Assembly (NCBI RefSeq): GCF_947260015.1
Contig: NZ_CAMYOM010000027.1
Location: 1-62,989 of the forward strand
From: an uncultured Eudoraea sp.
GTDB lineage: Bacteria > Bacteroidota > Bacteroidia > Flavobacteriales > Flavobacteriaceae
Direction of reading: 5' to 3'
DNA length: 62,989 nt
Below the pieces are notes generated by a model, which saw only the letters and a list, made by a program, of their open reading frames with translations, did no database searches and had not been told where the DNA came from. Within the stretch, counting starts at the first letter, position 1. Every line of letters begins with the position of its first letter. Positions 19,391 to 40,164 of this stretch are shown here, in pieces. The translations under genes were made by a program, and so were the position numbers.

Positions 19391-20422
19391 TTAGTTAATT
19401 GTTGATTCTCTTTCAATCAGAGTTGCTTCTATAACTTCAGTCCTAAAAGTTTCTTCTTCTAATTCCTTTTCATCATCTCTTTCTATTTTCTCAATAAGCA
19501 TTCTGGCAGCAATTGCACCCATTTGTTCTCCATGTTGCGCAACCGATGTAAGTGCAGGCGTGGCCAGTTTAGACAGAATACCATCCGTAAAACCAATAAA
19601 GGCAACATCTTCCGGGATTCTAATTCCATTTTTCTGTGCTATTTTCATAGATCTAACCGCAAATATTTCATTAACACATAAGACTGCATCCATTCTATTT
19701 GCTGCAAAGAAGGCTTCACTCTTTTTTTCTTCTTCATATTGATAAGGCAAACGTAAAATTAAACTTTCGTCCAGTTCCAGCTTGTGGTCTTTCAGAGCCA
19801 TATAATAACCCTGAGCCCTTTTATCACTTACATTCAAATAACTTTCGGTGGTAACCAGTGCTATGCGTTTTCTGCCATTTTCTATAAGTTTTTTTACTGC
19901 CATATAAGAAGCTTCAAAGTCGTTAAGAACAACCTTGTCACAAATTACATCATCTGTAACCCTGTCAAAAAGGACCATGGGCATACCCTGATCAATTATT
20001 TCTTTCAAATGATGGAAATCATTTTTTAGCTGAGTTTCTGCAGATAAAGCCATAATAAAACCATCAATACTGCCATTTGCCAATAGTTCCATATTTATAA
20101 CTTCCTTCTCAAATGATTCATCCGATACGCATGCAATAACATTATAGCCCCTGGTACCCGCAAATTGCTCTATCCCTCTAAAAACTGTAGTAAAAAAATG
20201 ATGAACTATATCTGGTATGATTACCCCTATATTTTTGGTGCGCCTGTTTTTAAGGCTAATGGCAATATTATTAGGTTTGTAGTTGTAAAGTTTAGCAAAA
20301 GCCTGAATTTTTTCCGTTGTGTCCTTGCTTATTTCCCGACTATTTTTTAGCGCCTTTGATACTGTTGAAATGGATACCTCCAATTCCCTGGCAATTTGTT
20401 TAAGAGTAATCTTTTTTTTCAA
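19391..20422 (-). CDS. LacI-family transcriptional regulator of the maltose/starch locus
   Basis: A 343-residue regulator. The helix-turn-helix lies at residues 4-28 (TLKQIARELEVSISTVSKAL) with the hinge helix near 50-57, followed by a periplasmic-binding-protein-like sensor domain (from NIGVIIPDI to the end). LacI proteins bind palindromic operators and release on sugar binding. It leads the pgmB, GH65, GH13, GH13 operon and is divergent from susC; a textbook operator (20648-20680) lies between them, so control of both directions, including itself, is likely. The inducer is probably maltose or a maltodextrin, by context. Confidence 0.92.
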   Translation of the reverse strand: MKKKITLKQIARELEVSISTVSKALKNSREISKDTTEKIQAFAKLYNYKPNNIAISLKNRRTKNIGVIIPDIVHHFFTTVFRGIEQFAGTRGYNVIACVSDESFEKEVINMELLANGSIDGFIMALSAETQLKNDFHHLKEIIDQGMPMVLFDRVTDDVICDKVVLNDFEASYMAVKKLIENGRKRIALVTTESYLNVSDKRAQGYYMALKDHKLELDESLILRLPYQYEEEKKSEAFFAANRMDAVLCVNEIFAVRSMKIAQKNGIRIPEDVAFIGFTDGILSKLATPALTSVAQHGEQMGAIAARMLIEKIERDDEKELEEETFRTEVIEATLIERESTIN

Positions 20423-23700: not shown

Positions 23701-23828
23701 GCCTGGATCCTGAAGTAAATGCCAATACGGGTGATATTGGAGGTTCCGGAATTCCTAGTCAGGGCATTGACTATACAACATTCCCGCGACCATTAACGGT
23801 AACTTTAGGAATAAATGCTAAATTTTAA
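20769..23828 (+). CDS. SusC/RagA-family TonB-dependent outer-membrane transporter
   Basis: Imports oligosaccharides across the outer membrane using TonB energy. The 1019-residue protein has a signal peptide (cut near LAKAQ-E, residue 24), an N-terminal carboxypeptidase-regulatory-like beta domain (about 25-100), the hallmark LDEVVIIGYGT, the plug domain with IRIRGANSIRSNNNPLFVVDG and LKDASATAIYGSRGANGV, then a 22-strand barrel ending in the aromatic ...NAKF. It looks intact. Substrate is not readable; control by the neighbouring LacI operator suggests maltodextrin, while the downstream xylose genes allow an alternative. Its partner SusD, directly downstream, is damaged. Confidence 0.95.
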   Translation: MKISLLKSFLLVGAILSFGLAKAQEISGTVSDENGPLPGASVVVKGTTNGTQTDFDGNYTLNNVESDATLVVSYIGYSTQEVALNGRTSVNVVLAEDAQALDEVVIIGYGTTTVKDATGAVSAINSEDFNGGIIASPEQLIQGKTAGVQIAQASGEPGAGVQIRIRGANSIRSNNNPLFVVDGIPLSAESTTPGGGDVQNGENASRNPLNFINPADIESISILKDASATAIYGSRGANGVVIVTTKTGKSGQGGVWEFDQTLSIATPRENYDLFDGPTFLAQQAALRSQAIADDLDFGNNTDWQKVVLRTAASPVSNLSYSNNYGSGNVRATFGYGKQFGVIEKSSQERITGRVNLNQRFLDDRLKLSMQASLSRVNDEAPPVSGASGASGNLLGAAYAANPTWPDDPAFFNPGNQLNPANYLANFQQTTNTDRFLINLSASYDIIKNDDNTLTAKVTGGWDRSDAAAFATFAPAINNLDRVSGNGQSSYNTLEASSKLLEATLNWKKNWTNSSLDAIIGFTYQDFRRQGINSQGWGSSSPFLDQMGRDLKETIRGAAGSISGSFQHFGYDPNGLSTDITKRYVSAWGDTFDNTDELQSYFARVNFTLHNKYLFTATFRADGSSKFSPDNQYGYFPSGAFAWKMNEEDFIGDNTFSTLKLRLSAGITGNQDGLGYAQFVKRSRFGEPDIDPDGSINRPGLETVAVQNPDLKWEETLDYNFGFDFGFMLDRLSGSLDFYRKETTDLLFKQAAAAPAFDPFVFKNLTDGKLVNQGVEFALGYDFIQNDKITFSGAFNISYNDNKVEGLNGTTADLSPIRGPGLSNAFAQRLGEGISIFSYYMATYAEDASGNPDFNPDIKGFVGQDAVPDVTSGLTLNLKADRWDANLFFAGQFGFSIYNNTSNAFLNRPTFLTSRNVDPTGIDLLTQEVSTLYLEKGDFVRLQNATVGYTVPLSGEGTFKNLRLSLTGQNLLLFTGYSGLDPEVNANTGDIGGSGIPSQGIDYTTFPRPLTVTLGINAKF

Positions 23829-23844
23829 CTTAAAAAAAACTGCG

Positions 23845-25366
23845 ATGATTAATTATTTAAAAACTAAATTTAAAACTACATTTTTTTCGAGAAGCGGCAA
23901 GTTCTGTTTCTGCAATGTTCAATGCTATTAACGGCAATCTTAAAACACAAGAAGGTTTATATGCCTTGACTACAGTTACAACTGATGAGCAACTGATTCC
24001 CACAAGAGGGTCTGACTGGGGAGATAATGGAATTTGGAGACAATTGCACCAGCATTCATGGACGCCGGATCATAAGTTTATTTTAGACACATGGAATAAT
24101 TGGAATGAGTTACAACTAACTGCCAGTGAAGTATTGGACAGCAGGTCTGCTTCTTCTCCTGATTCCAGAGCAACTGCTGCTTTCTTCAGAGGTTTGTCCG
24201 TATTTATAATCTTAGACAATTTTGGACAAGTACCTTTTAGGGATACTGAGGCTCCTCCTTTGCAGGATCCTGCGGTTCTTACCGGTGAAGATGCCGTAGC
24301 TCAAATAGTTTCCGATTTGGAGGCGGCTATAGCCGGCCTACCTGCTATTGGACCTGAAGGTGCTGCAAACGTAAATGTTTCCAAGGCTGCCGCCAGGCTC
24401 TTATTGGCCAAAGTTCATTTGAACAGGCATATTTTCAACGGCTCCGGAAGCCCGGATGCTGCTGATATGAGCAGGGTAATCACCCTGGTAGATGAAATAA
24501 CCGCCGATGGTTACGCATTGCACTCAGGTTTTTTCGATATTTTTAGAGAAACACAGGATAGTGAAACCATTTGGTGGAGCAAAAATGCTATTGGTGATCG
24601 CATGTGGAATTCTCTGCATTATAATAATGTTACACCGCAACAATCCGGAGGGTGGAATGGTTTTGCAACCCTTTCTGAATTCTATGATCTGTTTGAAGGG
24701 CCAGAAGAAAATATATTAGGTGGCGATCAGGAAGAAAGAAGAGGTGGGGTGCCACTTCAAGCAGCACCAGCCGGCGAAGATGGTACGGTTGATGAAGACA
24801 ATGATGGTTTTGCAGATGGCACGAACATAGGCTTTGGTTTCCTTTTTGGCCAACAATATAACCCGGACGGGACCCCAATTGTATTCGGTGGAACTAATTT
24901 GGATTTTACAAGAGAATTTTTCAACGCAGCTACAGGCGCGCCAGACCTAAATGATAATAGTCAGGTAACAGGGATTAGGGTACTCAAATACAACCCCAGA
25001 TATGGCGCACAAACAGAGCATAATGTTTTCTTAAGATATGCAGATGCTTATTTAATGAAAGCAGAGGCTATTCATAGAGGTGGTAGTAGTGGTGAAACAG
25101 CCTTGTCCTTGGTTAACACCCTTCGAGGTTTACGAGATGCTACTCCTCTTGGTAGTTTATCAGATCAAGATATAATAGATGAAAGAGGAAGGGAGCTTTA
25201 TATGGAGAATTGGAGACGTCAAGACTTAATTAGATTTGGCACATACACCCGCGATTGGGAATTTAAAGACCCGGCAGCCATTGGTAATGCAGATCGCCAG
25301 CTATTCCCTATTCCTGCAACTCAGGTTATTCTTAACCCTAATCTGGTTCAGAATCCCGGATATTAA
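23845..25366 (+). pseudogene. SusD/RagB-family glycan-binding protein, N-terminus deleted and frameshifted
   Basis: The body of a SusD-like protein is open from 23915 to 25366 (483 residues), with good family features such as LRYADAYLMKAEAIHRGG, DERGRELYMENWRRQDLIRFG and LFPIP. It lacks any signal peptide or lipobox. Seventeen bases after susC, an ATG at 23845 opens MINYLKTKFKTT, the start of a typical SusD leader, but this frame stops within 28 codons. The SusD frame appears only from about 23888 (REAASSVSAMFNA). So the hydrophobic leader, lipobox Cys and first mature residues, roughly 25-40 codons, are missing, with a frame change. Translation from ATG 23915 would give a cytoplasmic, presumably useless, protein. 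Real decay or assembly collapse are both possible. Confidence 0.82.
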
Positions 25367-25490: not shown

Positions 25491-26975
25491 ATGTACACCT
25501 TAGGCTATGACCTTGGAAGTTCTTCAATAAAAGTAGCCTTAGTAGCTATAGCATCTGGTAAAAGCCTGGCCGTAATAAGTGAACCTAAAACAGAAATGGA
25601 TATGCTCTCGCTAAACAAAGGGTGGGCAGAACAAGATCCTGAAGATTGGTGGGCGCATATATGCAACGCCACTAAAAAATTATTAAAAGAAACCGGAGTT
25701 AATCCAGGTAAAATAAAAGGTATAGGCATCTCTTACCAAATGCACGGCCTTGTTTTAGTTGATAAGCATGGTATTCCCTTAAGAAAATCAATTATATGGT
25801 GCGATGGAAGAGCCGTTGATATTGGCAGAAAAGCATTTGATGATCTTGGGCACGATACCTGTGCACAAAAACTTTTGAATTCACCGGCAAACTTTACAGC
25901 GTCTAAATTAAAATGGGTTAAGGAAAATGAACCCGAACTTTATAAAAACAGTTTTAAAGCCATGCTCCCTGGTGACTATATTGCTTATAAGTTAAGTGGA
26001 AAAGTTAATACCACCATTTCCGGCCTTTCAGAAGGTATATTCTGGGATTTTGAAGAAGAGCAAATTAGCAGTTGGCTTTTGGATTATTATGATTTAAATG
26101 AAGAGCTTCTCCCTGAAATTGTAGCTACTTTTTCAGACCAGGGCCAGATTTCTGTTAACGGGGCCAGGGAAACCGGCCTGGCAGAAGGCACCCCTATCCT
26201 TTATCGGGCTGGCGATCAACCTAATAATGCCCTCTCACTAAACGTATTTAATCCAGGTGAAGTAGCAGTTTCAGGCGGTACTTCCGGAGTGGTTTATGCC
26301 ATTACTGAGAAGCTCTCTGTTAAAGAATGTTCCCGTGTCAATAATTTTGCCCATGTTAATTATTCGCCCAGGAGCAGACGCATTGGTAAATTATTATGTG
26401 TGAATGGCGCTGGAATTATGTACAGATGGATATTAAATAACTTAAAGGTTGAATCCTATCAGGAAATGAATGAGTTGGCGGCGAATGTACCAATTGGTTC
26501 AGAAGGAGTTATTATTTTACCTTTTGGCAACGGCCCGGAGCGGATGTTAGACAATAAAGATTTAGGAGCACAAATAGGAAATATAAACCTAAATATTCAT
26601 TCCAGGGCACATCTTTGCAGGGCTGCATTAGAGGGTATTGCTTTTTCTTTTGTATATGGTATGGAAATTCTTAAAGCAGATGGTATTAAGTCCAAAGTAA
26701 TCAGAGCAGCTAATGATAATTTATTCAGGTCTCCTGTTTTTTCGAATACTATAGCTAGTTTAATAGATCAGGAAATCGAAATTTATAATACTACCGGTGC
26801 TATAGGAGCTGCAAGGGCATGCATGTTACATGAAGGTAATTGGGAGGCTTTTGGAAGACAAATAATGGACAATGATTATGTTAAGAGTTATTCGCCCTCA
26901 TCCGAAAAAAAGGAATATAAAATGGCATATAAACTCTGGAAAAACCAATTGGAAATAACATTAAAAGATAATTAA
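25491..26975 (+). CDS. xylB: Xylulokinase (FGGY family)
   Basis: Phosphorylates xylulose to xylulose 5-phosphate, feeding the pentose phosphate pathway. The 494-residue protein begins with the phosphate-binding YDLGSSSIKVALV, has GISYQMHGLVLVD with the xylulokinase-typical MHG, WCDGRA, the catalytic Asp region YRAGDQPNNA, and the late RAALEGIAFSFVYG helix. It appears full-length and intact. Its stop is one base from the xylA ATG, so the two were made as an operon. With xylA broken, its substrate would have to come from outside or from another isomerase copy. Confidence 0.93.
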   Translation: MYTLGYDLGSSSIKVALVAIASGKSLAVISEPKTEMDMLSLNKGWAEQDPEDWWAHICNATKKLLKETGVNPGKIKGIGISYQMHGLVLVDKHGIPLRKSIIWCDGRAVDIGRKAFDDLGHDTCAQKLLNSPANFTASKLKWVKENEPELYKNSFKAMLPGDYIAYKLSGKVNTTISGLSEGIFWDFEEEQISSWLLDYYDLNEELLPEIVATFSDQGQISVNGARETGLAEGTPILYRAGDQPNNALSLNVFNPGEVAVSGGTSGVVYAITEKLSVKECSRVNNFAHVNYSPRSRRIGKLLCVNGAGIMYRWILNNLKVESYQEMNELAANVPIGSEGVIILPFGNGPERMLDNKDLGAQIGNINLNIHSRAHLCRAALEGIAFSFVYGMEILKADGIKSKVIRAANDNLFRSPVFSNTIASLIDQEIEIYNTTGAIGAARACMLHEGNWEAFGRQIMDNDYVKSYSPSSEKKEYKMAYKLWKNQLEITLKDN

Positions 26976-26976
26976 A

Positions 26977-28234
26977 ATGGCACTTATTGGAAACAAGGAG
27001 TTTTATTCGGGAATAGGGGAAATACACTTTGAAGGCAAAGAATCTGATAATCCCCTGGCTTTTAAATACTATAATGCGGATCAGCTTGTGGCGGGTAAAA
27101 CCATGGGAGACCACTTAAGATTTGCAGTGGCCTACTGGCATACCTTTTGTGGTGTAGGCGCCGATCCTTTTGGTCCGGGTACACAAAATTTTCCCTGGGA
27201 TAATTATAGTGATCCTATAGATGCGGCAAAAGCCAAGGCCGATGCTGCCTTTGAGTTTATTACAAAAATGGGATTTAACTATTTCTGCTTCCATGATTTT
27301 GATCTGGTAAGAGAAGGGAGTTCATTTTCAGAATCTGAAAGGAGACTTTCATTGTTTTTCTAATCCCAGATATATGAATGGAGCCTCTACTAATCCGGAT
27401 TTTAACGTATTGGCAAGGGCCGGAGGGCAGATAAAACTAGCTCTGGATGCCACCATGGCTCTCGATGGCGAGAATTATGTTTTTTGGGGAGGACGCGAAG
27501 GTTATATGTCTTTATTAAATACAGACATGAAACGAGAATTGGACCATATGGGCCGATTTTTGACAACGGCAAGAGATTATGCAAGGCAACAGGGTTTTAA
27601 AGGGACTTTCTTTATTGAACCAAAGCCCATGGAACCTATGAAGCATCAATATGACTTTGACGCAGCAACAGTAGTTGGATTTCTGCATCAGTATGGTTTA
27701 CAAGATGATTTTAAACTGAATCTTGAAGTCAATCATGCCACCTTGGCAAGTCACACTATGCAACACGAAATGGAAGTTGCTGCCGCTCATGGAATGCTGG
27801 GGAGTATTGATGCAAATAGAGGTGATTATCAGAACGGTTGGGACACAGATCAATTTCCGAATAATATTACTGAAGTAACTGAAGCCATGCTTACATTTTT
27901 GAAAGCAGGAGGTTTGCAAGGCGGCGGAATTAATTTTGACGCCAAAATAAGGCGGAATTCTACTGATTTGGATGATGTATTCCATGCTCATATTGGTGGC
28001 GCAGACACCTTTGCACGGGCACTACTTATTGCCGACAAGATTATGACTTCTTCCCCCTATAATGATCTGAGAAAAAAGCGTTACCAGTCCTTTGATTCCG
28101 CTAAAGGGAAGGATTATGAACTTGGGAAATTAGATCTGAATGATCTTTATGAAATTGCAAAGTCAAATGGAGAATTAGAATTACAGAGCGGTAAACAAGA
28201 GTTGTTTGAAAATATAATAAACCAATACCTCTAG
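26977..28234 (+). pseudogene. xylA: Xylose isomerase, interrupted by an internal deletion with frameshift
   Basis: Two reading frames together make a xylose isomerase. Part 1 (26977-27363) runs from the start through NPLAFKYYN, YWHTFC and the catalytic FCFHDFDLV (His and Asp) to ESERRL, then reaches a stop. Part 2 resumes in another frame at about 27353 ([21 protein letters not shown]) and runs to 28234 with [40 protein letters not shown] and NFDAK, all active-site blocks. Against the E. coli enzyme about 23-27 residues are missing, including the KLLWGTAN strand whose Trp lines the sugar pocket. The missing length must be 2 modulo 3. The gene cannot make active enzyme as written; an assembly error is the alternative. 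Confidence 0.9.
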
Positions 28235-28343: not shown

Positions 28344-29996
28344 ATGACATCAGCTTTCGGATTTTGGGATTATTTTATTTTTATTGCATATGCCTTCCTA
28401 ATTTTAGGGGTTGGCCTGTGGGTATCCAGAGATAAAAAAGGGCATCAGAAGAATGCCGAAGATTATTTCCTTGCCAGTAAATCTCTGCCCTGGTGGGCCA
28501 TTGGTGCCTCCCTGATCGCCGCCAATATTTCTGCCGAACAATTTATCGGGATGTCCGGTTCAGGATTTGCGGTAGGATTAGCCATAGCATCCTATGAATG
28601 GATGGCGGCAATAACTTTACTTATCGTCGGTAAATTTTTCCTGCCAATTTTTATTGAAAAAGGTCTTTATACGATCCCGGAGTTTGTAGAGCAACGCTTT
28701 TCCACTACTCTAAAAACTATTTTAGCTGTATTTTGGATTGCACTTTACGTTTTTGTAAACCTGGCTTCTGTTTTGTATTTAGGTTCACTTGCATTAGAAA
28801 CAATTATGGGGATTCCTATGGTTTATGGTGTAATTGGACTGTCATTATTCGCTTCAGCATATTCCCTTTACGGAGGTCTTTCTGCCGTTGCCTGGACAGA
28901 TGTGATTCAGGTTATTTTTCTGGTTTTCGGAGGTTTGGTAACGTCGTATTTAGCGCTGAATACAGTCTCGGACGGGCAGGGAGTTCTGGAAGGTCTCAAA
29001 ATAGTTTACGAAACTGTCCCTGAGAAATTTGTCATGATACTGGATAAGTCCAATCCGGAATATGCTAATTTACCTGGATTGGGGGTACTGGTTGGTGGTA
29101 TGTGGGTGGCTAACTTGTATTATTGGGGTTTTAACCAATATATCATTCAAAGAACATTGGCCGCTAAGTCTTTAAGAGAAGCTCAAAAAGGAATTATTCT
29201 GGCTGCTTTTTTAAAAATAGTAATTCCGGTTATTGTGGTTTTACCAGGCATTGCAGCATATGTAATGATCCATGATGCTGAGATTATGAATCGCCTTGGA
29301 GAAGTCGGGCAGCAAAATCTACCTTCCCTTGAACAAGCAGATAAGGCTTATCCGTGGCTATTACAATTTTTACCAACCGGGCTAAAAGGAGTCGCTTTTG
29401 CGGCCTTGGCAGCTGCAATTGTATCTTCCCTGGCGTCTATGTTAAATTCTACATCGACCATTTTTACTATGGATATTTATAAGCAATATATTAATCCAAA
29501 TGCCTCTGACAAGAAAACAGTGAATGTAGGTCGTCTTTCAGCGGCCGCTGCGCTTGTTATTGCTTGTATAATGGCGCCATTATTGGGAGGAATAGACCAG
29601 GCATTCCAGTTTATACAGGAATGGACAGGATTGGTAAGTCCCGGAATTTTGGCCGTATTTATGTTGGGCCTATTCTGGAAGAAAACAACCAATAAAGCCG
29701 CTATCGTGGGTGCATTGGTATCTATACCTATAGCTTTTTATTTCAAAGTAGCCCCCAGCGGTTGGTCTGATAGTTCTATTTTTGCGGATGTCCCGTTTCT
29801 GGACCAGATGGGATACACAGCGCTGCTTACCATGTTGGTAATAGTGTTTGTCAGTCTTAATCAAAATAAAGGCGGGGATGATCCAAAAGGCATTCCGCTT
29901 GCAAAAGGTCTGTTTAATACCAGTGCGAAATTCAATGTTGGGGCCTTTGCGGCAATGATCATTATCGCTACTATTTATGCCCTCTTCTGGAATTAA
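28344..29996 (+). CDS. Sodium/solute symporter family (SGLT-like) sugar transporter
   Basis: A 550-residue, roughly 14-helix inner-membrane symporter of the SSS family, which couples sodium influx to sugar uptake. Typical blocks are GLWVSRDKKGHQKNAEDYFLASKSLPWWAIGAS, ISAEQFIGMSGSGFAVGLAI, YSLYGGLSAVAWTDVIQ (sugar-transporter subfamily) and FAALAAAIVSSLASMLNSTSTIF. It follows xylA by 109 bases and is likely the xylose (or glucose) uptake step of the xylB-xylA operon. It looks intact, so the broken xylA leaves an importer and kinase without the isomerase between them. Confidence 0.9.
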   Translation: MTSAFGFWDYFIFIAYAFLILGVGLWVSRDKKGHQKNAEDYFLASKSLPWWAIGASLIAANISAEQFIGMSGSGFAVGLAIASYEWMAAITLLIVGKFFLPIFIEKGLYTIPEFVEQRFSTTLKTILAVFWIALYVFVNLASVLYLGSLALETIMGIPMVYGVIGLSLFASAYSLYGGLSAVAWTDVIQVIFLVFGGLVTSYLALNTVSDGQGVLEGLKIVYETVPEKFVMILDKSNPEYANLPGLGVLVGGMWVANLYYWGFNQYIIQRTLAAKSLREAQKGIILAAFLKIVIPVIVVLPGIAAYVMIHDAEIMNRLGEVGQQNLPSLEQADKAYPWLLQFLPTGLKGVAFAALAAAIVSSLASMLNSTSTIFTMDIYKQYINPNASDKKTVNVGRLSAAAALVIACIMAPLLGGIDQAFQFIQEWTGLVSPGILAVFMLGLFWKKTTNKAAIVGALVSIPIAFYFKVAPSGWSDSSIFADVPFLDQMGYTALLTMLVIVFVSLNQNKGGDDPKGIPLAKGLFNTSAKFNVGAFAAMIIIATIYALFWN

Positions 29997-30463: not shown

Positions 30464-33400
30464 ATGATAATATCAGGATTAAAAAGAATTGCAGGTCTTA
30501 TACTTTTACTTGCAATTACGATATCGTGTAATTCAGAAAAAGAAAGTTTTAAGGAAATTAAGAATGCCCATCCTACCCTCTTTACGCTGCTGCCTTCTTC
30601 ACATACCGGTATAGACTTCCTTAACAAAGTTGAAAACCAAAAAAACTTCAACATTTTTAAGTATAGAAATTTCTACAATGGTGGCGGAGTGGCCATAGGA
30701 GATATAAACAATGATGGATTGACCGATATTTATATGACAGGAAATATGGTCTCCAACAAACTTTACCTCAATAAGGGTGGATTAAAATTTGAAGACATCT
30801 CTGAAAAAGCAGGCGTAAAAGGATCTAAGCCCTGGTCTACAGGAGTTGTTATGGTTGATATTAACCAGGATGGATTACTTGATATTTATGTAAGTAACGC
30901 GGGTAATATGAAGGGAAATAACCATGATAATGACCTCTATATAAACAACGGTGACCTGACTTTTACAGAAAAAGCAGCTGAATATAACCTGGCCAAAACC
31001 GGCTTTTCTACCCAGGCATCTTTTTTTGATTACGATAAAGATGGCGATCTGGACGCATATATCCTTAACAATAGCAACATCCCTGTAAGTAGTTTGGGAT
31101 ATGCAGAACAAAGAGATATTAGGGCTCAGGATTGGGAGGGCATCCCGGATATTTTTAAGGGTGTCGGCGACATGCTTTTGCGGAATGATAATGGAAAATT
31201 TGTGGATGTTAGTGAAGATGCCGGGATCTATGGCAGCCTGATTGGATTTGGACTAGGGGTTATGATTACTGACATCAATAAAGACCTCTATCCGGATATC
31301 TATATATCTAACGACTTTTACGAACGGGACTATCTTTACATCAACAACCAGGATGGCACCTTTAAAGAAGATATAAAGAACTGGACTTCCCATCTCTCCT
31401 TATCTGCAATGGGAATTGATATTTCAGATATTAATAACGACGGTAATGCAGATATTTTTATTACAGATATGCTTCCGGAACCCGATCAAAGGGTAAAATC
31501 GATTATGGAATTTGAAGGTTACAATGTTTATAAATTAAAACAAAGCAAGGACTTTTACCAACAATACATTCAAAACACTTTACAGCTAAATAACGGAAAT
31601 GGATCGTTTTCAGAAATAGCCTATTTCAGCGGAGTTGAAGCAACAGATTGGAGCTGGGCAGGACTTCTTTTTGATATGGATAATGACGGGCTCAGAGATA
31701 TTTATATTACAAACGGTATTAATCACGATCTTACGGATCTTGACTTTATCGATTTTTTTGCCAATGAAATCATTCAGAATATGGTGCTTACAGGCAAGAA
31801 AGAGTCTATAGATTCCATTATCAATAAAATGCCCGTAAGACCTCAGCCAAATTACGCGTATAGAAACAATGGAGATCTTACATTTTCAAATGCCAACAAA
31901 GATTGGGGGTTTGAAATACCCAGTTTATCAAATGGTGCTGCCTATGGAGACCTAGATAATGACGGGGATCTGGATATTGTAGTTAATAATGTTAATATGG
32001 AGTCCTTTGTTTATGAAAATAATGCTACTTCACTCACGGAAAACAACTATATAAAACTTGGGTTCGAAGGTCAAAAAGAAAATAAATTTGCCGTTGGAAC
32101 TACAGTGATGCTTTACAATGACAAAAATGTTATCCTCCAGGAATTAGTGCCTTCCCGGGGTTTTCAATCTTCCATGGATCACGTAATGACCATAGGATTA
32201 GGTAAATATAAAACCATTGATTCTATTAGAATTATTTGGCCGGATGATAAAACAGTAAAGTTAGAAAAGGTTGCTGTTAATCAATTCCTCACCTTTAAAC
32301 ATTCTGACGCCAGAGAGGTTTACATTCCTTTAATTAAAGAGAAGAAGCCTTCGTTATTAAAAGAAATTCAAAACAATCAACTTATTGCCCATAAAGAGAA
32401 TGTTTATAATGATTTTGATTACGAGGGACTTATTTATATGCAACTCTCTCAGGAAGGACCGGCATTGGCTGTAGGTGATATCGATGGTGATGGCAACGAG
32501 GATGTCTTTATTGGAGGGGCTAAAAACCAATCCGGGATTGTCTACAAACATAGTGGAAACGGGACGTTAAGCGTTACAAATCAAAACTCGCTGGAAAAAG
32601 ATTCCGAATATGAAGATACTGCAGCAGCTTTTTTTGATGCTGACGGAGATTTAGATTTAGATCTAATTGTAGGTTCAGGCGGCAATCAGGTTGGGGAAGA
32701 AAAAAACTATGTGGCCCGTCTATATTTAAACAACGGCAATGGGTCTTTTGTAAAGTCAGCGGAAAGACTTCCTTCGACCTTCACGAATATTTCAACCATA
32801 GCGCCTTCAGACTATGACAATGACGGTGATACAGATCTTTTTATAGGTTCCAGAAGTATAGTAGGTACTTATGGAATTGATCCTAAACATTTGTTATTGG
32901 AGAATAAGGGTGATGGTACTTTTGAAAATGTAACGGAAAGAAATGCCTATGACCTTAAAGATGCCGGAATGATTACAGACGCAATTTGGGCAGATATAGA
33001 TGGGGATTCAAAAAAAGACCTGATAACTGTTTCGGATTGGGGGACGCCAAAAATCTTTAAAAATTCGGGCAGACAATTGTCTTTCCAAAATTCGGCCCTT
33101 GATAGTCTGCCCGGATGGTGGAATGTTGTGGAAGCGGTGGATTTAGATAAAGACGGAGATAACGATCTGATCTTAGGCAACCAGGGAAGTAACCTGCACT
33201 ATAAGCCCGGTATAGATAGTCCAATGAAAATGTGGATTAATGATTTTGATGACAATGGTACAATTGAACAAATAGTAACCCAGAATATTGATGGCAAGGA
33301 TTATCCTCACCATCAGAAAAAGGACTTAACCACTCAAATGGTTGCATTAAAAAAGCAAAACCTAAAGGCCTCAGAATATTCCACAAAGACCATTGAGGAA

Positions 33401-33823
33401 TTATTTCCTGCAGAAATTTTTGGGAACTCAATCATGAAAAAAGCGGCCATCTCAGAATCCATAATTGCCGTTAATGAAGGCGATGGTAATTTTTCTGTTA
33501 TAAAGCTACCTTCCAGAAGTCAATTGTCGTGTATTTGCGGTATTAGCTGTGCCGATGTGAATAGTGATGGGAATTTAGACTTAATCCTGGGAGGTAACAA
33601 TTTTGAATTTAAACCTCAGTATTCAAGATTGGATGCTAATTATGGTAATGTTCTGCTTGGTGATGGAGCTTTAGGCTTTGAATGGCAGGACTATGATACC
33701 AGTGGTTTTTTTATAAGAGACGAGATTAAACAATTGAAGCAGTTTAAAGATAAAACAGGAAAGACCTATTTGATAGTTGCTATCAATGAGAATAAACCTA
33801 AGATATTTGCGATCGATGAATAA
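30464..33823 (+). CDS. Giant FG-GAP/VCBS-repeat lipoprotein with UnbV/ASPIC-type domain (CRTAC1-like), copy 1
   Basis: About 1119 residues. A GTG-started frame extends upstream to 30320, but the ATG at 30464 opens a proper lipoprotein signal (MIISGLKRIAGLILLLAI then TISC), so I choose it. The protein is built from many FG-GAP/VCBS repeats with calcium-binding loops (DINNDGLTDIY, DINQDGLLDIY, DYDKDGDLDAY, DLDNDGDLDIV), consistent with one or two seven-bladed propellers. A UnbV/ASPIC-type segment lies near residues 525-625 (GTTVMLYND, PSRGFQSSMDHVMTIGLG, IIWPDDKTV). It is probably surface-exposed and calcium-stabilised. Function is unknown; the family is common in marine Bacteroidota, often near SusCD loci. 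It overlaps its paralogue downstream by eight bases. Confidence 0.85.
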   Translation: MIISGLKRIAGLILLLAITISCNSEKESFKEIKNAHPTLFTLLPSSHTGIDFLNKVENQKNFNIFKYRNFYNGGGVAIGDINNDGLTDIYMTGNMVSNKLYLNKGGLKFEDISEKAGVKGSKPWSTGVVMVDINQDGLLDIYVSNAGNMKGNNHDNDLYINNGDLTFTEKAAEYNLAKTGFSTQASFFDYDKDGDLDAYILNNSNIPVSSLGYAEQRDIRAQDWEGIPDIFKGVGDMLLRNDNGKFVDVSEDAGIYGSLIGFGLGVMITDINKDLYPDIYISNDFYERDYLYINNQDGTFKEDIKNWTSHLSLSAMGIDISDINNDGNADIFITDMLPEPDQRVKSIMEFEGYNVYKLKQSKDFYQQYIQNTLQLNNGNGSFSEIAYFSGVEATDWSWAGLLFDMDNDGLRDIYITNGINHDLTDLDFIDFFANEIIQNMVLTGKKESIDSIINKMPVRPQPNYAYRNNGDLTFSNANKDWGFEIPSLSNGAAYGDLDNDGDLDIVVNNVNMESFVYENNATSLTENNYIKLGFEGQKENKFAVGTTVMLYNDKNVILQELVPSRGFQSSMDHVMTIGLGKYKTIDSIRIIWPDDKTVKLEKVAVNQFLTFKHSDAREVYIPLIKEKKPSLLKEIQNNQLIAHKENVYNDFDYEGLIYMQLSQEGPALAVGDIDGDGNEDVFIGGAKNQSGIVYKHSGNGTLSVTNQNSLEKDSEYEDTAAAFFDADGDLDLDLIVGSGGNQVGEEKNYVARLYLNNGNGSFVKSAERLPSTFTNISTIAPSDYDNDGDTDLFIGSRSIVGTYGIDPKHLLLENKGDGTFENVTERNAYDLKDAGMITDAIWADIDGDSKKDLITVSDWGTPKIFKNSGRQLSFQNSALDSLPGWWNVVEAVDLDKDGDNDLILGNQGSNLHYKPGIDSPMKMWINDFDDNGTIEQIVTQNIDGKDYPHHQKKDLTTQMVALKKQNLKASEYSTKTIEELFPAEIFGNSIMKKAAISESIIAVNEGDGNFSVIKLPSRSQLSCICGISCADVNSDGNLDLILGGNNFEFKPQYSRLDANYGNVLLGDGALGFEWQDYDTSGFFIRDEIKQLKQFKDKTGKTYLIVAINENKPKIFAIDE

Positions 33824-36800
33824 ATACCTCCTGGGAATTATTGTGGTCTCTTTATCATTAAGCTGTGGCCCGAAAGAAGGGGAACTTTTTAAAAATCCAC
33901 CTCCCAAAGAAACGGCTATAACTTTTGAAAACACATTAACAGAAACGGATGATCTCAATATATTAGATTATCTGTATTTCTATAATGGAGGTGGTGTTGC
34001 TGTAGGAGATATTAACAACGACGGCCTTGTTGACATATATTTCTCCGGAAATATGGTTAAGAACAAACTATATCTGAACAAAGGAGGGCTCAAATTTGAA
34101 GATATTACAGAACTTGCCCATGTAGAGGGTAATAGCAGTTGGAATACGGGAACTATAATGGGTGATGTTAATGGTGACGGGCTATTGGATATCTATGTAT
34201 GCGCAATGGTTGGAATTAACGGTTTTAAAGGTTACAATGAACTTTTTATTAATCAGGGAGATAAAACTTTTGTGGAAAGTGCTGAGGCATATGGTCTGGA
34301 TTTTGACTCCTACAGTTCTTCAGCCGCTTTTTTAGACTATGATCTTGATGGCGATCTGGATATCTACATTTTAAACCAGGCTGTACATACACCAGAATCT
34401 TTTGGTAAGGCAGACCTTCGTTATAAAAGAAATTACCAGACCGGAGACAAGTTGCTTCGAAACGAGAATGGAAAATTCCTTGATGTTAGTGAAGAGGCTG
34501 GCATCTATGGAGGTGTTAATGGATATGGATTAAGCATAGCTATATCGGATTTTAATCAGGATGGTTACCCCGATATATACATTGGAAATGATTTTCATGA
34601 AGATGATTACTATTACTTAAACAATGGAGACGGAACGTTCACCGAAAACATAAAGAAGTATTTCGGGCATACTACCAGATTTTCTATGGGGAGTGATGTT
34701 GCAGACATTAACCATGATGGATGGCCTGATATTCTTTCCTTAGATATGCTGCCTGAAGATGAAACCGTTCTTAAATCTTCGGAAGGTGATGACAATATTC
34801 AAACCCAGAAGTTAAGAACAAAAAGATATGGTTACCACTACCAGTTCACCAGGAACATGCTGCAATTAAATCGCCCTGGAAGTAGCTTCGCAGAAATAGC
34901 ATTATATAGTGGTATTGCTGCCACAGACTGGAGTTGGAGCGGTCTATTTGGAGATTATGACCAGGATGGTGAACAAGACTTATTTATAGCCAACGGTATC
35001 CCAAAACGTCCTAATGATCTTGATTTTATAAACTTTGTCTCCAGTGATCAGATCAAAACTAAGATTAATAATACGAAACTGGTAGACCAACAGGCCCTTA
35101 ATATGATGCCTTCGGGGAATGTCCATAATTATGTATTCAGAGGATCATCAGACCTCTTATTCGAAGATAAATCAGGGTCATGGATTATTAACGACACACT
35201 TATTTCCGGGGCTACTGCGGTAGCAGACTTAGATAATGACGGCGATCTGGATCTTGTTACCAATAATATAAATAGCCCTGCCAGTATATATATCAATAAA
35301 ACCAATGGGAAAAACAATTACCTCAAAATTAAATTAAAATATTCGCCTCCCAACCCATTTGGAATTGGAACCAAAGTGTTCTCATATCACAATGGTGTTT
35401 TGCAGTATAAGGAATTATATCCCGTAAGGGGTTTTCAATCATCTTCGGAACCTATAATCCATTTTGGATACGGTAAAACCGCAAAGATAGATTCTCTAAA
35501 AATAGTCTGGCCTGATGGGCAATTTCAGAATGTAAAAAACGTAAATACAAATCAAACAATAATCATTTCACCTGAAAACACCATGCCTTTTGATTATGGA
35601 TCGCTTCAGCCTTCGAAGCTCAGAATCTTCAGAGAGGTAGAAGATAATCTCGGAATCAACTTTACACATAAGGAAGATAATTATGTAGATTTTAACCGAC
35701 AAAAACTTATCCCATATCAAATATCCGATAGGGGCCCCGCAACAGCAATTGGTGACATTAACAATGATGGTAAAGCCGATATTTTCTTTGGAGGCTCCAA
35801 ATTTATACCTTCCAGGATCTTTTTTCAGACAGACTCTTTGTATGTAGAAAAAGGCATCCCTGAAATTCAAAGAGATAGCATAAAAGAAGATGTTACAGCT
35901 GTTATTGCCGATTTTACAGGTAATGGAAAAACTGATCTGATCCTGGGTTCCGGCGGAGCAGATTTCTACAATAAAATGGTCCCTTTACTGGACAGTTATT
36001 ATGTTCAGAAAGATACCGTTTTTGAACAAGCCTTGCTACCTGAATATTTTGAGAATGCTTCAGTGATTAAAGCAAATGACTTTGATAGTGATGGGGATCT
36101 TGACATTTTTGTTGGCAACCAGGCCATATCCAATGACTTTGGTAAAATGCCAAATTCCTTTTTGCTAAAAAACAACAATGGCCAATTCACCATTGTAAAA
36201 AATAAGGATCTGCAAAATGCGGGGATGATTACCGATGCTATATGGGAAGATTTTGACGGGGATGGAATCCAGGATCTGATTGTAGTAGGTGAATGGATGT
36301 CACCCAAATTCTTTGCCAATATCAATGGTGTTCTTGTTGAAAAGAAAAATTTAGACAGGGAAATAAATGGCCTGTGGCAAAGTGTAACGGCTTTTGATAT
36401 TGATAAGGATGGTGACAAAGATTATCTATTAGGAAATTGGGGAGTAAATAATAAATTCAGAGCATCCGAAGACTTGCCCTTAAAGATGTTTTATTCAGAT
36501 TTTGATGGAAATGGCAGTACGGAAACTATTGTCGCTATTCCTAAAAACGGAAAATACTTTCCACTTGAAGGATTAGATGGTATTGCAGGACAATTAGTGG
36601 AGTTGCGCAAAAAATTTACTAATTATAGCGATTTTGCCGGCAAAACCATTGAGCAGATATTGGATAAAAAAACATTGGATAACTCAATTGTTTTAGAAGT
36701 ATCTGAATTGAGATCAGGATATCTGGAGAATAATAATGGCAAATTTACTTTTGTGGCATTTGAGAATGAATTACAATTGGCACCCATAATGGATTTTCTT

Positions 36801-37076
36801 GCCTACGATTTTGATCAGGATGGTTCTGAAGAAGTTATAGCAGCAGGGAATTATTTTGGGGTTAAACCCTATCATGGACGTTTTGGTTCTTTTCCCGGTG
36901 CTATGATAAAAAGCAAAAATGACGTAATTTTGGGGCATAAAATGGGACTGGATCTTTCTCAGAAATCAACACGTCATCTTGATATAATTAAATTAAACAA
37001 CCAACCTTATTTACTGGTAACCTTCAATAACGAGAAAGCCCGCGTTTATGAATTAATAAAACAAAACTCAAAATGA
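33816..37076 (+). CDS. Giant FG-GAP/VCBS-repeat lipoprotein with UnbV/ASPIC-type domain (CRTAC1-like), copy 2
   Basis: About 1086 residues, a diverged paralogue of the gene upstream with the same layout. I place the start at the ATG at 33816, which opens a lipoprotein signal (MNKYLLGIIVVSLSLSCG) and overlaps the upstream stop by eight bases; an earlier in-frame ATG at 33777 would add 13 residues before the signal. Repeats again carry DxDxDG loops (DINNDGLVDIY, DVNGDGLLDIY, DYDLDGDLDIY, DFDGDGIQDLI). The UnbV/ASPIC-type block is at GIGTKVFSYHNG, PVRGFQSSSEPIIHFGYG, KIVWPDGQ. Both copies share the FYNGGGVA(I/V)GDINNDGL opening, so they arose by duplication and probably form a pair. Role unknown. 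Confidence 0.84.
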   Translation: MNKYLLGIIVVSLSLSCGPKEGELFKNPPPKETAITFENTLTETDDLNILDYLYFYNGGGVAVGDINNDGLVDIYFSGNMVKNKLYLNKGGLKFEDITELAHVEGNSSWNTGTIMGDVNGDGLLDIYVCAMVGINGFKGYNELFINQGDKTFVESAEAYGLDFDSYSSSAAFLDYDLDGDLDIYILNQAVHTPESFGKADLRYKRNYQTGDKLLRNENGKFLDVSEEAGIYGGVNGYGLSIAISDFNQDGYPDIYIGNDFHEDDYYYLNNGDGTFTENIKKYFGHTTRFSMGSDVADINHDGWPDILSLDMLPEDETVLKSSEGDDNIQTQKLRTKRYGYHYQFTRNMLQLNRPGSSFAEIALYSGIAATDWSWSGLFGDYDQDGEQDLFIANGIPKRPNDLDFINFVSSDQIKTKINNTKLVDQQALNMMPSGNVHNYVFRGSSDLLFEDKSGSWIINDTLISGATAVADLDNDGDLDLVTNNINSPASIYINKTNGKNNYLKIKLKYSPPNPFGIGTKVFSYHNGVLQYKELYPVRGFQSSSEPIIHFGYGKTAKIDSLKIVWPDGQFQNVKNVNTNQTIIISPENTMPFDYGSLQPSKLRIFREVEDNLGINFTHKEDNYVDFNRQKLIPYQISDRGPATAIGDINNDGKADIFFGGSKFIPSRIFFQTDSLYVEKGIPEIQRDSIKEDVTAVIADFTGNGKTDLILGSGGADFYNKMVPLLDSYYVQKDTVFEQALLPEYFENASVIKANDFDSDGDLDIFVGNQAISNDFGKMPNSFLLKNNNGQFTIVKNKDLQNAGMITDAIWEDFDGDGIQDLIVVGEWMSPKFFANINGVLVEKKNLDREINGLWQSVTAFDIDKDGDKDYLLGNWGVNNKFRASEDLPLKMFYSDFDGNGSTETIVAIPKNGKYFPLEGLDGIAGQLVELRKKFTNYSDFAGKTIEQILDKKTLDNSIVLEVSELRSGYLENNNGKFTFVAFENELQLAPIMDFLAYDFDQDGSEEVIAAGNYFGVKPYHGRFGSFPGAMIKSKNDVILGHKMGLDLSQKSTRHLDIIKLNNQPYLLVTFNNEKARVYELIKQNSK

Positions 37077-38419
37077 AGAAGACATTAGGAATGTTGCTGG
37101 CAATAATAACTCTTGCGTCCTGCAATAAGAACGAAGAACCCATTGTTGTTACACCAAATGAACTGCATATGGCTATAAACAAGGTTACAGAGATTATGAT
37201 ACATGATATTTTTTCTCCCCCTGTTGCCAGTAGGATCTATGCCTATCCAAATATAGCCGCATATGAAATAATAGCGCTAAATGATGAACATTACCTCTCA
37301 TTGGAAGGTCAGGCGCACGAACTCACTGCGATTCCCAAACCAGACACATCAAAACCGGTAAATTATTCATTATCTGCTTTAATAGCACATATGGATGTAA
37401 GCAGCAGAGTAATATTTTCTGAGGATAAACTGGCTACGTTCAGGGATAGTCTATATACTGTCTGGGAATCTCAAAACGCACGAGAATTTAATGCCTCCAA
37501 AGAGTACGGACTGCAGGTTGCCGAGCATATTGCAGAATGGATGAATGGAGACAATTATAATCAAACACGGACAATGCCCAAGTTTACCGTAGATACTGAT
37601 GACCCTTCGAGATGGCAACCCACCCCTCCGGCATATATGGATGGAATAGAGCCTCATTGGAACAAAATACGCCCTTTTGTTATAGATTCTGCAAACCAAT
37701 TTATTCCCACTCCTCCCCCACCTTTTTCTATGGAAGAAGATTCAGAATTTTACAAAGAAGTAAAAGAAGTATATGACATTAGCATGGAAATCACTGAAAA
37801 GGGAGACACCTCCGAGGAAATTGCCATAGCACAGTTCTGGGATTGTAATCCATATGTTTCCGTGACACGTGGTCATTTGATGTTCGCAACAAAGAAAATT
37901 TCCCCGGGTGCCCACTGGATTGGTATAGTTAAAATTGCTGCCAAAAATACAAATAGTGATTTTAACAAAACAGTATACGCCTATACCAAAACATCCATGG
38001 CCATAGCCGATGCTTTTATTAGTTGTTGGGATGAAAAGTACAGAAGTAATCTTATCCGGCCTGAAACCCTGATCAACGAACATATTGACGAAAACTGGAA
38101 GCCGGTATTGCAAACCCCCCCATTTCCTGAGTACACCAGTGGGCATAGTGTAGTTTCCGGAGCAGCTGCAACGGCACTTACTGATATATTTGGTGACAAT
38201 TTTACCTTTGATGATGATACTGAAGTGCCTTTTGGATTGCCTGCCAGAAGTTTTAATTCATTTAATGAAGCCGCAGATGAGGCGGCTATTAGCAGAATGT
38301 ACGGCGGAATTCATTATAGAAAAGCCGTTGCGATTGGCGTAAAACAAGGAAGGGATTTAGGCAAGTTCATTTTGGAAAACCTTACAATGACCAGGAATCC
38401 CAATTTAGTTTCCAATTAG
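37073..38419 (+). CDS. Vanadium-dependent haloperoxidase/PAP2-superfamily lipoprotein
   Basis: A 448-residue lipoprotein (lipobox ITLASC, C17), so extracytoplasmic. The C-terminal half has the complete vanadate/phosphate-binding set: K322-x6-R329-P, T355-S-G-H358 and S-R408-x5-H414. These match Curvularia chloroperoxidase K353, R360, S402-G-H404, R490 and H496 in order and spacing; H414 would be the axial vanadium ligand and H358 the acid/base. The family either oxidises halides with hydrogen peroxide or acts as an acid phosphatase; sequence alone does not separate these. It overlaps the upstream UnbV gene by four bases (ATGA), so the three proteins are very likely made together. Confidence 0.85.
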   Translation: MKKTLGMLLAIITLASCNKNEEPIVVTPNELHMAINKVTEIMIHDIFSPPVASRIYAYPNIAAYEIIALNDEHYLSLEGQAHELTAIPKPDTSKPVNYSLSALIAHMDVSSRVIFSEDKLATFRDSLYTVWESQNAREFNASKEYGLQVAEHIAEWMNGDNYNQTRTMPKFTVDTDDPSRWQPTPPAYMDGIEPHWNKIRPFVIDSANQFIPTPPPPFSMEEDSEFYKEVKEVYDISMEITEKGDTSEEIAIAQFWDCNPYVSVTRGHLMFATKKISPGAHWIGIVKIAAKNTNSDFNKTVYAYTKTSMAIADAFISCWDEKYRSNLIRPETLINEHIDENWKPVLQTPPFPEYTSGHSVVSGAAATALTDIFGDNFTFDDDTEVPFGLPARSFNSFNEAADEAAISRMYGGIHYRKAVAIGVKQGRDLGKFILENLTMTRNPNLVSN

Positions 38420-38423
38420 TTAT

Positions 38424-39323
38424 ATGAAAAAGATCATTTTAGTTTTAGTGACACTGCTACTTGTGGGTCTTGTATGGTATTTGTTTATAAAGCCCTATGA
38501 TTACCTCGTAACTTTCAAAGCCAGGACGTTTCCAGGGACTATTAACCAATCTATTAAAATTTGGAGCTCTACTCTGAAAGATGCACAATTAGTGAAACAG
38601 GAAGGTCTAACTCACCTGGAACAAAATATAAAATTCAACGATTCTACTTATTTATATAAATGGGACATTATTCCGCTAACAGACTCTACTTCAAAGGTAA
38701 AAGTTTATGTAAAGGATCTTGATCATAGTTTTGGAAACAAAATTGCGATCCCTTTTTTTAATACCGATTTTGAAAAACGAACCATAAGTACAGTTAAGGA
38801 TTTTAATGAAAACCTAAATACACACATTGATAAGTTCAGGGTTAAGATTATTGGCCCGGGAGAATTAACTTCTACTTATTGTGCTTGTGTTAAAGTAAAG
38901 ACCACTCAATTAGTAAAAGCAAAGGGAATGATGAAATACTATCCCTTACTAAATAACATCTTTGCCAGTAACGGAATTGAATTAAGTGGAAGGCGATTTT
39001 TAGAAGTTACCAAATGGGACAGGGAAACAGACAGCATACAGTTTGATTTCTGTTATCCGATTATTAAAACGGACTCATTGCCCCAACATCCGGACATGAA
39101 GTACAAGGAATTCAATTCAAGGAAAGCACTTATGGCAATTTATAATGGTAATTATATAACTTCGGACAGGGCTTGGTATGCTCTTTTGGATTATGCCGAT
39201 AAAAATGATATTCAAGTTACAGGTCTGCCAGTAGAAGTTTTCCATAGCAACCCTAATATGGGAGGTGATGGACTTAATTGGAAAGCGGAAATCTATATGC
39301 CCTTAAAAAACAACAATGAGTAG
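38424..39323 (+). CDS. Membrane-anchored SRPBCC/GyrI-like effector-binding domain protein
   Basis: A 299-residue protein with one N-terminal membrane helix (residues 4-22) and the rest outside or periplasmic. Residues about 25-140 look like an SRPBCC-type ligand-binding fold (YDYLVTFKARTFPGTINQSI is the usual opening), and residues about 150-295 resemble the GyrI-like small-molecule-binding domain (CVKVKTTQL, then GNYITSDRAWYALLDYADKN, ending NWKAEIYMPL). No DNA-binding domain is present. It starts four bases after the haloperoxidase stop and overlaps the next gene by eight bases, so it belongs to the same operon. Ligand and role unknown. Confidence 0.65.
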   Translation: MKKIILVLVTLLLVGLVWYLFIKPYDYLVTFKARTFPGTINQSIKIWSSTLKDAQLVKQEGLTHLEQNIKFNDSTYLYKWDIIPLTDSTSKVKVYVKDLDHSFGNKIAIPFFNTDFEKRTISTVKDFNENLNTHIDKFRVKIIGPGELTSTYCACVKVKTTQLVKAKGMMKYYPLLNNIFASNGIELSGRRFLEVTKWDRETDSIQFDFCYPIIKTDSLPQHPDMKYKEFNSRKALMAIYNGNYITSDRAWYALLDYADKNDIQVTGLPVEVFHSNPNMGGDGLNWKAEIYMPLKNNNE

Positions 39324-40164
39324 GTATTTATACATTTTATTCACAAGCCTATTATTCAGTTGTTCCAACTATGGTCAGCTTACTTACATTACTAAACTCC
39401 CTAAAAAAATGGACGAAAATTCGGGAATGGTAGTAGGCCGGGATTCCACTGTTTGGATGATTAACGACAGTGGAGGTGCAGATAAAATATATCAAATAAA
39501 TTTTAAGGGAAAGTACGTCAAACAACTCGAAGTCAAAAATGCCAAAAACAAGGATTGGGAAGAACTGGCCCGTGATATTGATGGTAATGTTTATATAGCT
39601 GATACAGGAAATAATGCTAATAAAAGAAAAGACCTGGTTATATATAAAATACCCAATCCGGATAAGGAAAAAGGAGACAAGATTGAAGCAGAACGCATAG
39701 AATTCAACTTTCCTGAACAAAAAAAATTTCCCCCTAAAAAGAAAAATTTACACTTTGACACAGAGGCCATTTTCTACGCAAAAGACAGCCTTTATCTTAT
39801 CACAAAAAACAGGTCCCATCCTTTTAGTGGTGAGGCCATGATATACAGAATTCCCGCGAAAAAGGGGAAATATAAGGCCACTTACCTTGGAGAATTTATT
39901 CCCTGTACAGATTTTTCCACCTGTAAAATAACAGCGGCAGACATTTCCCCTGACGGTAAAACCATCGCCCTGTTAGGCTATGGCAAATTATGGCTTTTCA
40001 CTAATTTTGATCTTTCAAATTTCTTTAAAGGAGAGCTAAAAACAATTGATCTTGGTATTAGAACACAACTGGAATCTATTTCTTTCCTCAATAATAATAC
40101 CCTGTTGCTTTCCGATGAAGAACTGCATAAATCCGGAAGGAATCTTTATTCTTTTAGCTTTTAA
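39316..40164 (+). CDS. Predicted beta-propeller lipoprotein
   Basis: A 282-residue protein with a short lipoprotein signal (LLFSC, C16). Repeating strands such as MVVGRDSTVWMINDSGGADKIY, GNVYIADTGNNANKR, HFDTEAIFYAKDSLYLITKN and AADISPDGKTIALLGYG suggest a six- or seven-bladed propeller of the kind found in SdiA-regulated or esterase-like phytase-like lipoproteins. It overlaps the upstream gene by eight bases and is the last gene of the operon starting at 30464. No catalytic residues are recognisable. Binding of a peptide or glycan is a guess. Confidence 0.7.
   Translation: MSRYLYILFTSLLFSCSNYGQLTYITKLPKKMDENSGMVVGRDSTVWMINDSGGADKIYQINFKGKYVKQLEVKNAKNKDWEELARDIDGNVYIADTGNNANKRKDLVIYKIPNPDKEKGDKIEAERIEFNFPEQKKFPPKKKNLHFDTEAIFYAKDSLYLITKNRSHPFSGEAMIYRIPAKKGKYKATYLGEFIPCTDFSTCKITAADISPDGKTIALLGYGKLWLFTNFDLSNFFKGELKTIDLGIRTQLESISFLNNNTLLLSDEELHKSGRNLYSFSF

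Follow-up and report, generated by a model that had tools for sequence, protein, structure and literature searches.

Organisation of the operon

We analysed a stretch of 62,989 nucleotides (hereafter, the window) from contig NZ_CAMYOM010000027.1 of an uncultured Eudoraea sp. of the Flavobacteriaceae (assembly GCF_947260015.1), focusing on a five-gene operon at positions 30464-40164 in which a vanadium iodoperoxidase-type lipoprotein follows two large UnbV lipoproteins. All five genes are on the forward strand. The first, UnbV1 (30464..33823), encodes a lipoprotein with FG-GAP repeats and a UnbV/ASPIC domain, and the second, UnbV2 (33816..37076), a UnbV/ASPIC lipoprotein with a predicted double propeller. 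They are followed by gene 3 (37073..38419), the iodoperoxidase-type lipoprotein, by gene 4 (38424..39323), a membrane-tethered product with a helix, a START-like part and a GyrI-like ligand-binding domain, and by gene 5 (39316..40164), a small propeller-like lipoprotein. Re-reading the coordinates confirmed the overlaps (8, 4 and 8 bases) and the gap of 4 bases from which the initial annotation had recognised the operon. The reading frames of UnbV1 and UnbV2 open already at GTG 30320 and TTG 33777, respectively, ahead of the starts given here. A promoter/terminator scan gave 34 hits against 35.9 in shuffled sequences and 8 against 7.9.

Regarding the domains, UnbV1 and UnbV2 matched the Pfam families FG-GAP_3 (E values 6.5e-74 and 1.2e-62) and UnbV_ASPIC (8.7e-20 and 3e-22) over the cut-offs, and gene 3 showed a PAP2 domain (1.7e-10). 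No NCBIfam model reached its cut-off in any of the five products. A home-made rule found a lipobox-like Cys at residue 22 of UnbV1, 17 of UnbV2, 17 of the haloperoxidase and 16 of gene 5, and gene 4 begins with a predicted long N-terminal helix, which agrees with the earlier proposal that all the products are membrane-anchored. That most of them are outside the cytoplasm is also a fair reading, although their location at the cell surface is equivocal. An acid-rich stretch after the lipobox is a mark of surface-exported Bacteroidota lipoproteins, and at least two acidic residues were present there in 38 of 44 SusD proteins, 84 of 158 UnbV proteins, 35 of 94 enzymes and none of 19 gene 5 products.

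The probable iodoperoxidase

Gene 3 belongs with a characterised vanadium iodoperoxidase, and thus its likely chemistry is known. In a phmmer comparison it matched 4CIT/4USZ at 1.8e-229, with 73% identity over 441 columns, and the next solved sequence came at 3.5e-05. The 4USZ entry is the vanadium iodoperoxidase of Zobellia galactanivorans (PMC5064120). Both enzymes have a lipobox Cys and the same seven pocket residues, K322, R329, S356, G357, H358, R408 and H414 in the window, corresponding to 324, 331, 358, 359, 360, 410 and 416 of 4CIT and identical at all seven positions. We take these residues to be those that bind vanadate, and so the full vanadate site described in the initial annotation is indeed there. 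Across 100 aligned relatives the K, both R and both H are found in all 100, the S in 99 and the G in 98. Judging from this kinship, the product is very probably an iodide-oxidising enzyme, and iodide would be its halide in vivo.

The nearest relative of 4CIT among the frames compared, with 98.4% identity, is encoded in Zobellia uliginosa DSM 2061 (L078 and L093, which are one locus), where the order is UnbV-UnbV1-UnbV2-enzyme-gene4-gene5 and the genome (G001) contains a single enzyme relative at E up to 1e-80. The literature consulted for this analysis names no gene context for the iodoperoxidase of Z. galactanivorans.

In the source genome (3.42 Mb in 98 contigs) there is one close copy of the enzyme, and the next match is 31% identical. 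Contig C23 (L085 3540-8850) carries a distant VCPO-like haloperoxidase, 27% identical to gene 3; the same run of genes also encodes a GMC oxidoreductase, an amidohydrolase and a short-chain dehydrogenase.

Conservation of the neighbourhood

The neighbourhood was surveyed in 149 genomes of 148 genera of the family, with an enzyme threshold of E up to 1e-80, and three sets of loci were counted. The named set comprised the best 80 of 446 relatives minus L067, whose fused frame is scored as UnbV, which left 79; the family set, 60 of the 70 enzyme places; and the class set, 40 of 80 places outside the family, hand-chosen, one per genome. Neighbours in these loci were called by profile search on the fetched DNA, UnbV at 150 bits or more, and the counts are not corrected for kinship. 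The UnbV profile covers the whole protein and also picks up plain FG-GAP proteins with low scores (for example 493 aa in L166 and 517 aa in L176).

The enzyme was present in 67 of the 149 genomes, at 70 places, and in at least 46 of these a UnbV2-like gene ends no more than 123 bases upstream. The family-survey neighbour counts for UnbV and gene 5 are lower bounds, as 150 UnbV places, with no more than five scored candidates per genome, and the best 29 gene 5 (Prop) places were used. We counted 578 UnbV domain matches, spread over 117 of the 149 genomes at roughly one per megabase, and therefore we estimate that chance would produce such neighbours in well under 1% of cases. UnbV lies immediately upstream of the enzyme in 60/79 named, 47/60 family and 17/40 class loci, and immediately downstream in 0/79, 2/60 and 2/40; within four genes on the same strand it was found in 68/79, 53/60 and 27/40. 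The threshold had little influence on the upstream counts, which with no threshold, 150 and 400 bits were 61, 60 and 58 of 79 named loci, 47 of 60 family loci each time, and 18, 17 and 17 of 40 class loci. The distant or reversed UnbV neighbours in L137, L166, L168, L169, L172, L181, L182 and L183 had UnbV_ASPIC over the cut-off in 8 cases out of 8. Thus the pairing is kept far beyond the source genome, and the lack of conservation that the initial annotation had named as the main point against its proposal was not found.

In a quick tree of 101 enzymes, with 32 of 98 inner branches open and a looser UnbV threshold, 82 had UnbV on the same strand and no more than four genes away, with at least 12 changes of state. 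The enzyme precedes UnbV in L137, L138, L169, L181 and L183. As the gene order varies, the pairing of enzyme and UnbV is not merely one frozen operon.

SusC or SusD was on the same strand in 7/79 named loci, which reach at most 10 kb upstream, in 40/60 family loci and in 16/40 class loci, and the contiguous order SusC-SusD-UnbV-enzyme was found in 1/79, 22/60 and 8/40, respectively.

Some loci contain additional genes. Outside the family, L158, L164 and L165 have a protein of about 440-457 aa between SusD and the UnbV-enzyme pair, in L164 by gene pattern only; in L158 and L165 this protein matched copper monooxygenases or cytochromes below the threshold, and a redoxin is also encoded in L158. 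Flagellimonas/Allomuricauda loci (L046 1576-2796, L051 2869-3336) have, upstream of the operon, genes for a molybdopterin oxidoreductase and for a small protein whose haem-binding match is below the threshold.

The UnbV proteins

The initial annotation described UnbV1 and UnbV2 as calcium-propeller lipoproteins. They contain 10 and 11 DxDxDG-type loops, respectively, and such loops bind calcium in the FG-GAP/UnbV family. The structure model of UnbV2 (predicted local distance difference test, pLDDT, 87.5; predicted template modelling score, pTM, 0.88) suggests a double propeller, a count read from the strand pattern and the fold matches. Its best fold match was CRTAC1 (3.1e-28), and other multi-propeller proteins were much weaker. 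CRTAC1 and the UnbV/ASPIC FG-GAP proteins have the propeller and the ASPIC domain in common with the window proteins; unlike CRTAC1, the latter are bacterial lipoproteins and would have a second propeller. We know of no assigned function for bacterial UnbV/ASPIC FG-GAP proteins.

The source genome has three UnbV domains, those of UnbV1 and UnbV2 and one on contig C25 (L084 6837-18375), where it belongs to a SusC-SusD-UnbV set without haloperoxidase, the SusC being over the cut-off and the SusD match being weak. It is transcribed divergently from genes for a GMC oxidoreductase and for subunit 3 of a gluconate 2-dehydrogenase. We considered whether the C25 UnbV was the broken-off front of the operon and rejected the idea: in six loci with a full extra UnbV gene upstream (L004, L005, L007, L009, L012 and L014), these extra proteins are no closer to the C25 UnbV (37.9-38.7% identity) than to UnbV1/UnbV2 (38.6-40.5%). 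The counterparts of UnbV1 and UnbV2 in the same six loci are 68-90% identical. On these comparisons C25 is a separate SusC-SusD-UnbV set.

In Zobellia amurskyensis (L067 6689-11353) UnbV2 and the iodoperoxidase are read in one open frame with no stop between them. We do not accept this fusion as proof of contact, since it is a single case and the frame keeps an internal methionine and a signal-like stretch.

Genes 4 and 5

Gene 4 passed the cut-off of the GyrI-like family PF06445 (27.4 bits against 26), and its model (pLDDT 89.7) shows the long N-terminal helix followed by two domains, a START-like half, which weakly matches the fold of a cyclase di-domain, and a GyrI-like half. Its best fold matches, with E values from 4e-9, include CTR107 with rhodamine and CtaZ with closthioamide, and therefore the modelled product is a likely binder of flat or hydrophobic small molecules. 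Of the 41 gene 4 places in the family survey, 38 had the enzyme no more than 300 bases away.

Gene 5 is the loosest member of the operon. Its match to the phytase-like PF13449 is sub-threshold (21.6 bits against 27.6) and a PDB sequence search gave a best E value of 0.14. Relatives occur in 107 of the 149 genomes, and gene 5 follows the enzyme, directly or behind gene 4, in 67/79 named, 20/60 family and 0/40 class loci.

The sugar locus upstream

A SusCD alpha-glucan locus, which was absent from the initial annotation, starts around 18 kb upstream of the operon in the same window. On the reverse strand there are a GH13 alpha-amylase-like enzyme (12462..14342; PF00128, 4.9e-23), whose counterparts in relatives lie upstream of SusC, a GH13 cyclomaltodextrinase-like enzyme (14344..16233; PF00128, 6.8e-48, with Cyc-maltodext_N and _C, the NCBIfam matches being below the cut-offs), a GH65 enzyme (16306..18621; GH65 N, m and C domains, NF010380 1187.7 bits against a cut-off of 838), presumably of the maltose-phosphorylase type, a beta-phosphoglucomutase (18697..19368; TIGR01990, 237 bits against 189.4) and a LacI-family sugar regulator (19391..20422; LacI helix-turn-helix and Peripla_BP_3), divergent from SusC. 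On the forward strand follow SusC, the TonB-linked outer-membrane transporter (20769..23828; TIGR04056, 663.2 bits against 368.25), and SusD (23915..25366; SusD_RagB, 4.8e-22). The open frame of SusD has no signal-like N-terminus, and a possible N-terminal stretch of it lies in another frame at 23828-23930, so that damage to the gene, or an error in the assembly, may be present at this point.

Between SusD and the operon, also on the forward strand, lie a xylulokinase-like FGGY kinase, XylB (25491..26975; TIGR01312, 302.6 bits, under the cut-off of 380.25), the xylose isomerase XylA (26977..28234) and a sodium:solute (sugar) symporter (28344..29996; TIGR00813, 382.3 bits against 184). XylA is in two frames with a break at about 27363, the second piece matching positions 149-435 of TIGR02630 (1.2e-128), and its relative in L045 is over the cut-off of that model; the split is either an assembly error or a broken gene.

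With SusC and SusD as a pair, LacI, two GH13 enzymes, GH65 and beta-phosphoglucomutase, the window has the components of starch/maltodextrin Sus-type loci. SusE/SusF-like accessory lipoproteins take the gene position behind SusD in Sus loci; the window differs in having UnbV double propellers in that place and a vanadium peroxidase. In 37 hand-chosen upstream regions, belonging to 37 of the 60 family loci, LacI was present in 26; 20 had one or more of the alpha-glucoside enzymes sought, and 18 had at least two kinds of them. Elsewhere GH97, GH13, trehalase, GH65 or a sugar transporter of the major facilitator superfamily adjoins the operon. GH65 was found in 113 of the 149 genomes, and the enzyme in 63 of these 113 as against 4 of the other 36 (Fisher p 1.8e-6, uncorrected for kinship). 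Of the 63 genomes that have both genes, 28 carry them no more than 40 kb apart, a count lowered by contig breaks, whereas we estimate that around 2% would be expected by position. An arabinofuranosidase near the family locus L134 and a fucosidase near the class locus L164 suggest that the module may accompany SusCD pairs of more than one specificity.

Iodine uptake and possible sources of peroxide

Iodine uptake by Arenibacter sp. C-21 requires glucose, O2 and Ca2+, and glucose is dispensable when a system making hydrogen peroxide (H2O2) or oxidising iodide is supplied; a haloperoxidase was proposed, and the genome (BDGL00000000) has at least five 4USZ homologues (PMC5064120). This H2O2-dependent uptake would fit a sugar-linked iodoperoxidase. 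Z. galactanivorans is reported to accumulate iodine (PMC9296495), and a passage of the same paper on algal defence states that its vIPO3 is upregulated with the brown alga Ascophyllum nodosum compared to alginate.

Regarding possible makers of H2O2, five GMC-oxidoreductase matches in the source genome are over the cut-off, one beside the SusC-SusD-UnbV set of C25 and one three genes before the VCPO-like haloperoxidase of C23. Within the window, an HI0933-like flavin adenine dinucleotide enzyme at 9747-11036 is over the cut-off of the aminoacetone oxidase family and is a possible H2O2 maker.

In the literature searched we found no account of a link between UnbV or SusCD and a haloperoxidase. 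PMC5064120 does not link haloperoxidase and SusD, and the passages of PMC9296495 and PMC12188728 on haloperoxidases or polysaccharide utilization loci do not describe the link of UnbV and SusCD with the enzyme.

Interpretation

We propose, with a probability of around 50%, that the operon supplies the distal part, acting in the cell envelope, of an alpha-glucan SusCD locus, with the UnbV proteins as accessory components and an iodoperoxidase that spends H2O2 on iodide during feeding. SusC and SusD would import the sugar, probably an alpha-glucan, and the calcium-loaded double-propeller lipoproteins UnbV1 and UnbV2, in the SusE/SusF slot, would probably capture glycan or hold the complex together. 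The lipid-anchored iodoperoxidase would use H2O2 to convert iodide into hypoiodous acid (HOI) or I2, so that during feeding peroxide is removed and iodine trapped at the envelope. The gene 4 product, in the inner membrane and facing the periplasm, might bind a small hydrophobic product or signal, and the gene 5 product may be a periplasmic accessory. A stronger version, in which SusC, SusD, the UnbV propellers and the iodoperoxidase form one calcium-dependent envelope machine coupling alpha-glucan/glucose uptake to iodide oxidation and iodine capture, seems unlikely to us.

Several observations weigh against this proposal. In the window, the xylose genes and a terminator-like hairpin at 30030, of a kind no commoner there than in shuffled sequences, separate SusCD from UnbV1, and in Zobellia too other genes intervene between SusCD and UnbV. 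SusC/SusD were on the same strand in only 40 of the 60 family loci and 16 of the 40 class loci, 17 of the 37 upstream regions had none of the alpha-glucoside enzymes sought, and GH65 and the enzyme are more than 40 kb apart or on different contigs in 35 of the 63 genomes that have both. Furthermore, 19 of the 101 tree tips have no UnbV within four genes of the enzyme, and C25 shows UnbV with SusCD and no enzyme. The acidic mark of surface export is frequent in SusD, but less so in UnbV and the enzyme, and gene 5 products lack it. Finally, we identified no H2O2-making enzyme in the locus, and the parallel with strain C-21 presumes that this strain has the operon.

The enzyme might also be a defence of algal feeders against peroxide or halogens, merely co-regulated with sugar uptake, without joint assembly and with UnbV serving glycan only. 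The C25 set, in the same genome, and the induction of vIPO3 by A. nodosum in the passage of PMC9296495 cited above speak for this explanation, and H2O2 and HOI diffuse, so a complex would be unnecessary. However, the UnbV pairing persists across families in spite of changed order (enzyme-UnbV, UnbV-enzyme, SusCD-UnbV-enzyme), which is closer than co-regulation alone requires, and we consider the explanation possible if somewhat unlikely. The initial annotation suggested that the UnbV proteins are a surface scaffold presenting the enzyme. The frequency of UnbV directly upstream of the enzyme and the single open frame of L067 agree with this, whereas UnbV far outnumbers the enzyme and occurs with SusCD alone, and the L067 frame has kept its own internal signal-like stretch; a scaffold in this sense is improbable.

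The same annotation left the choice between a halogenating enzyme and a phosphatase, and of these two the halogenating one gains from our results. A phosphatase acting on phosphorylated sugars or glycans ahead of import would suit the PAP2 superfamily fold and pocket, the sugar-locus context and the occurrence of relatives in many Bacteroidia genomes, from habitats possibly poor in iodide. Nevertheless, gene 3 shares 73% of its residues with a characterised iodoperoxidase, and the acid phosphatase motif of PAP2, SRx5Hx3D, is incomplete in it: its final Asp is replaced by Ala in the window, as in 88 of the 100 relatives, and only one relative has Asp. This position is not a clean mark, because the aligned algal-type haloperoxidase 1qhb has Asp there. 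All in all, we regard a phosphatase as quite improbable. As to a xylose function, suggested by XylB, XylA and the symporter directly upstream, XylA or XylB accompany the operon in 20/79 named and 12/60 family loci. They were not found in 59/79 and 48/60, and for this reason we rejected xylose as the core function; moreover, SusC-SusD stand directly before UnbV in 22/60 family loci and the LacI-GH65 set is the more frequent partner, so that this explanation is highly improbable.

Significance

The module is real and widely conserved, a variant of the Sus-type locus undescribed in the literature searched, in which an enzyme of a known type turns up where it was not expected. For the solved Zobellia enzyme a structure and an activity are known but, in the literature consulted, neither partner nor pathway, and the conserved operon supplies both; it also names a context for the UnbV/ASPIC lipoproteins. 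The puzzling need for glucose and calcium in the iodine uptake of a marine flavobacterium becomes reducible to gene deletions; a gene knockout has been reported for the marine model Z. galactanivorans (PMC8490876). The frequent joint travel with starch-sugar uptake genes makes a connection of sugar feeding with iodine chemistry open to test. If the single envelope machine were true, the operon would explain genetically why the accumulation of iodine in marine Flavobacteriaceae depends on sugar, O2 and Ca2+, and the wider pairing of enzyme and UnbV would be a general means by which Bacteroidia station an enzyme that makes oxidants beside their nutrient importers. Our results suggest that sugar-feeding marine bacteria may join coastal iodine cycling via a defined locus.

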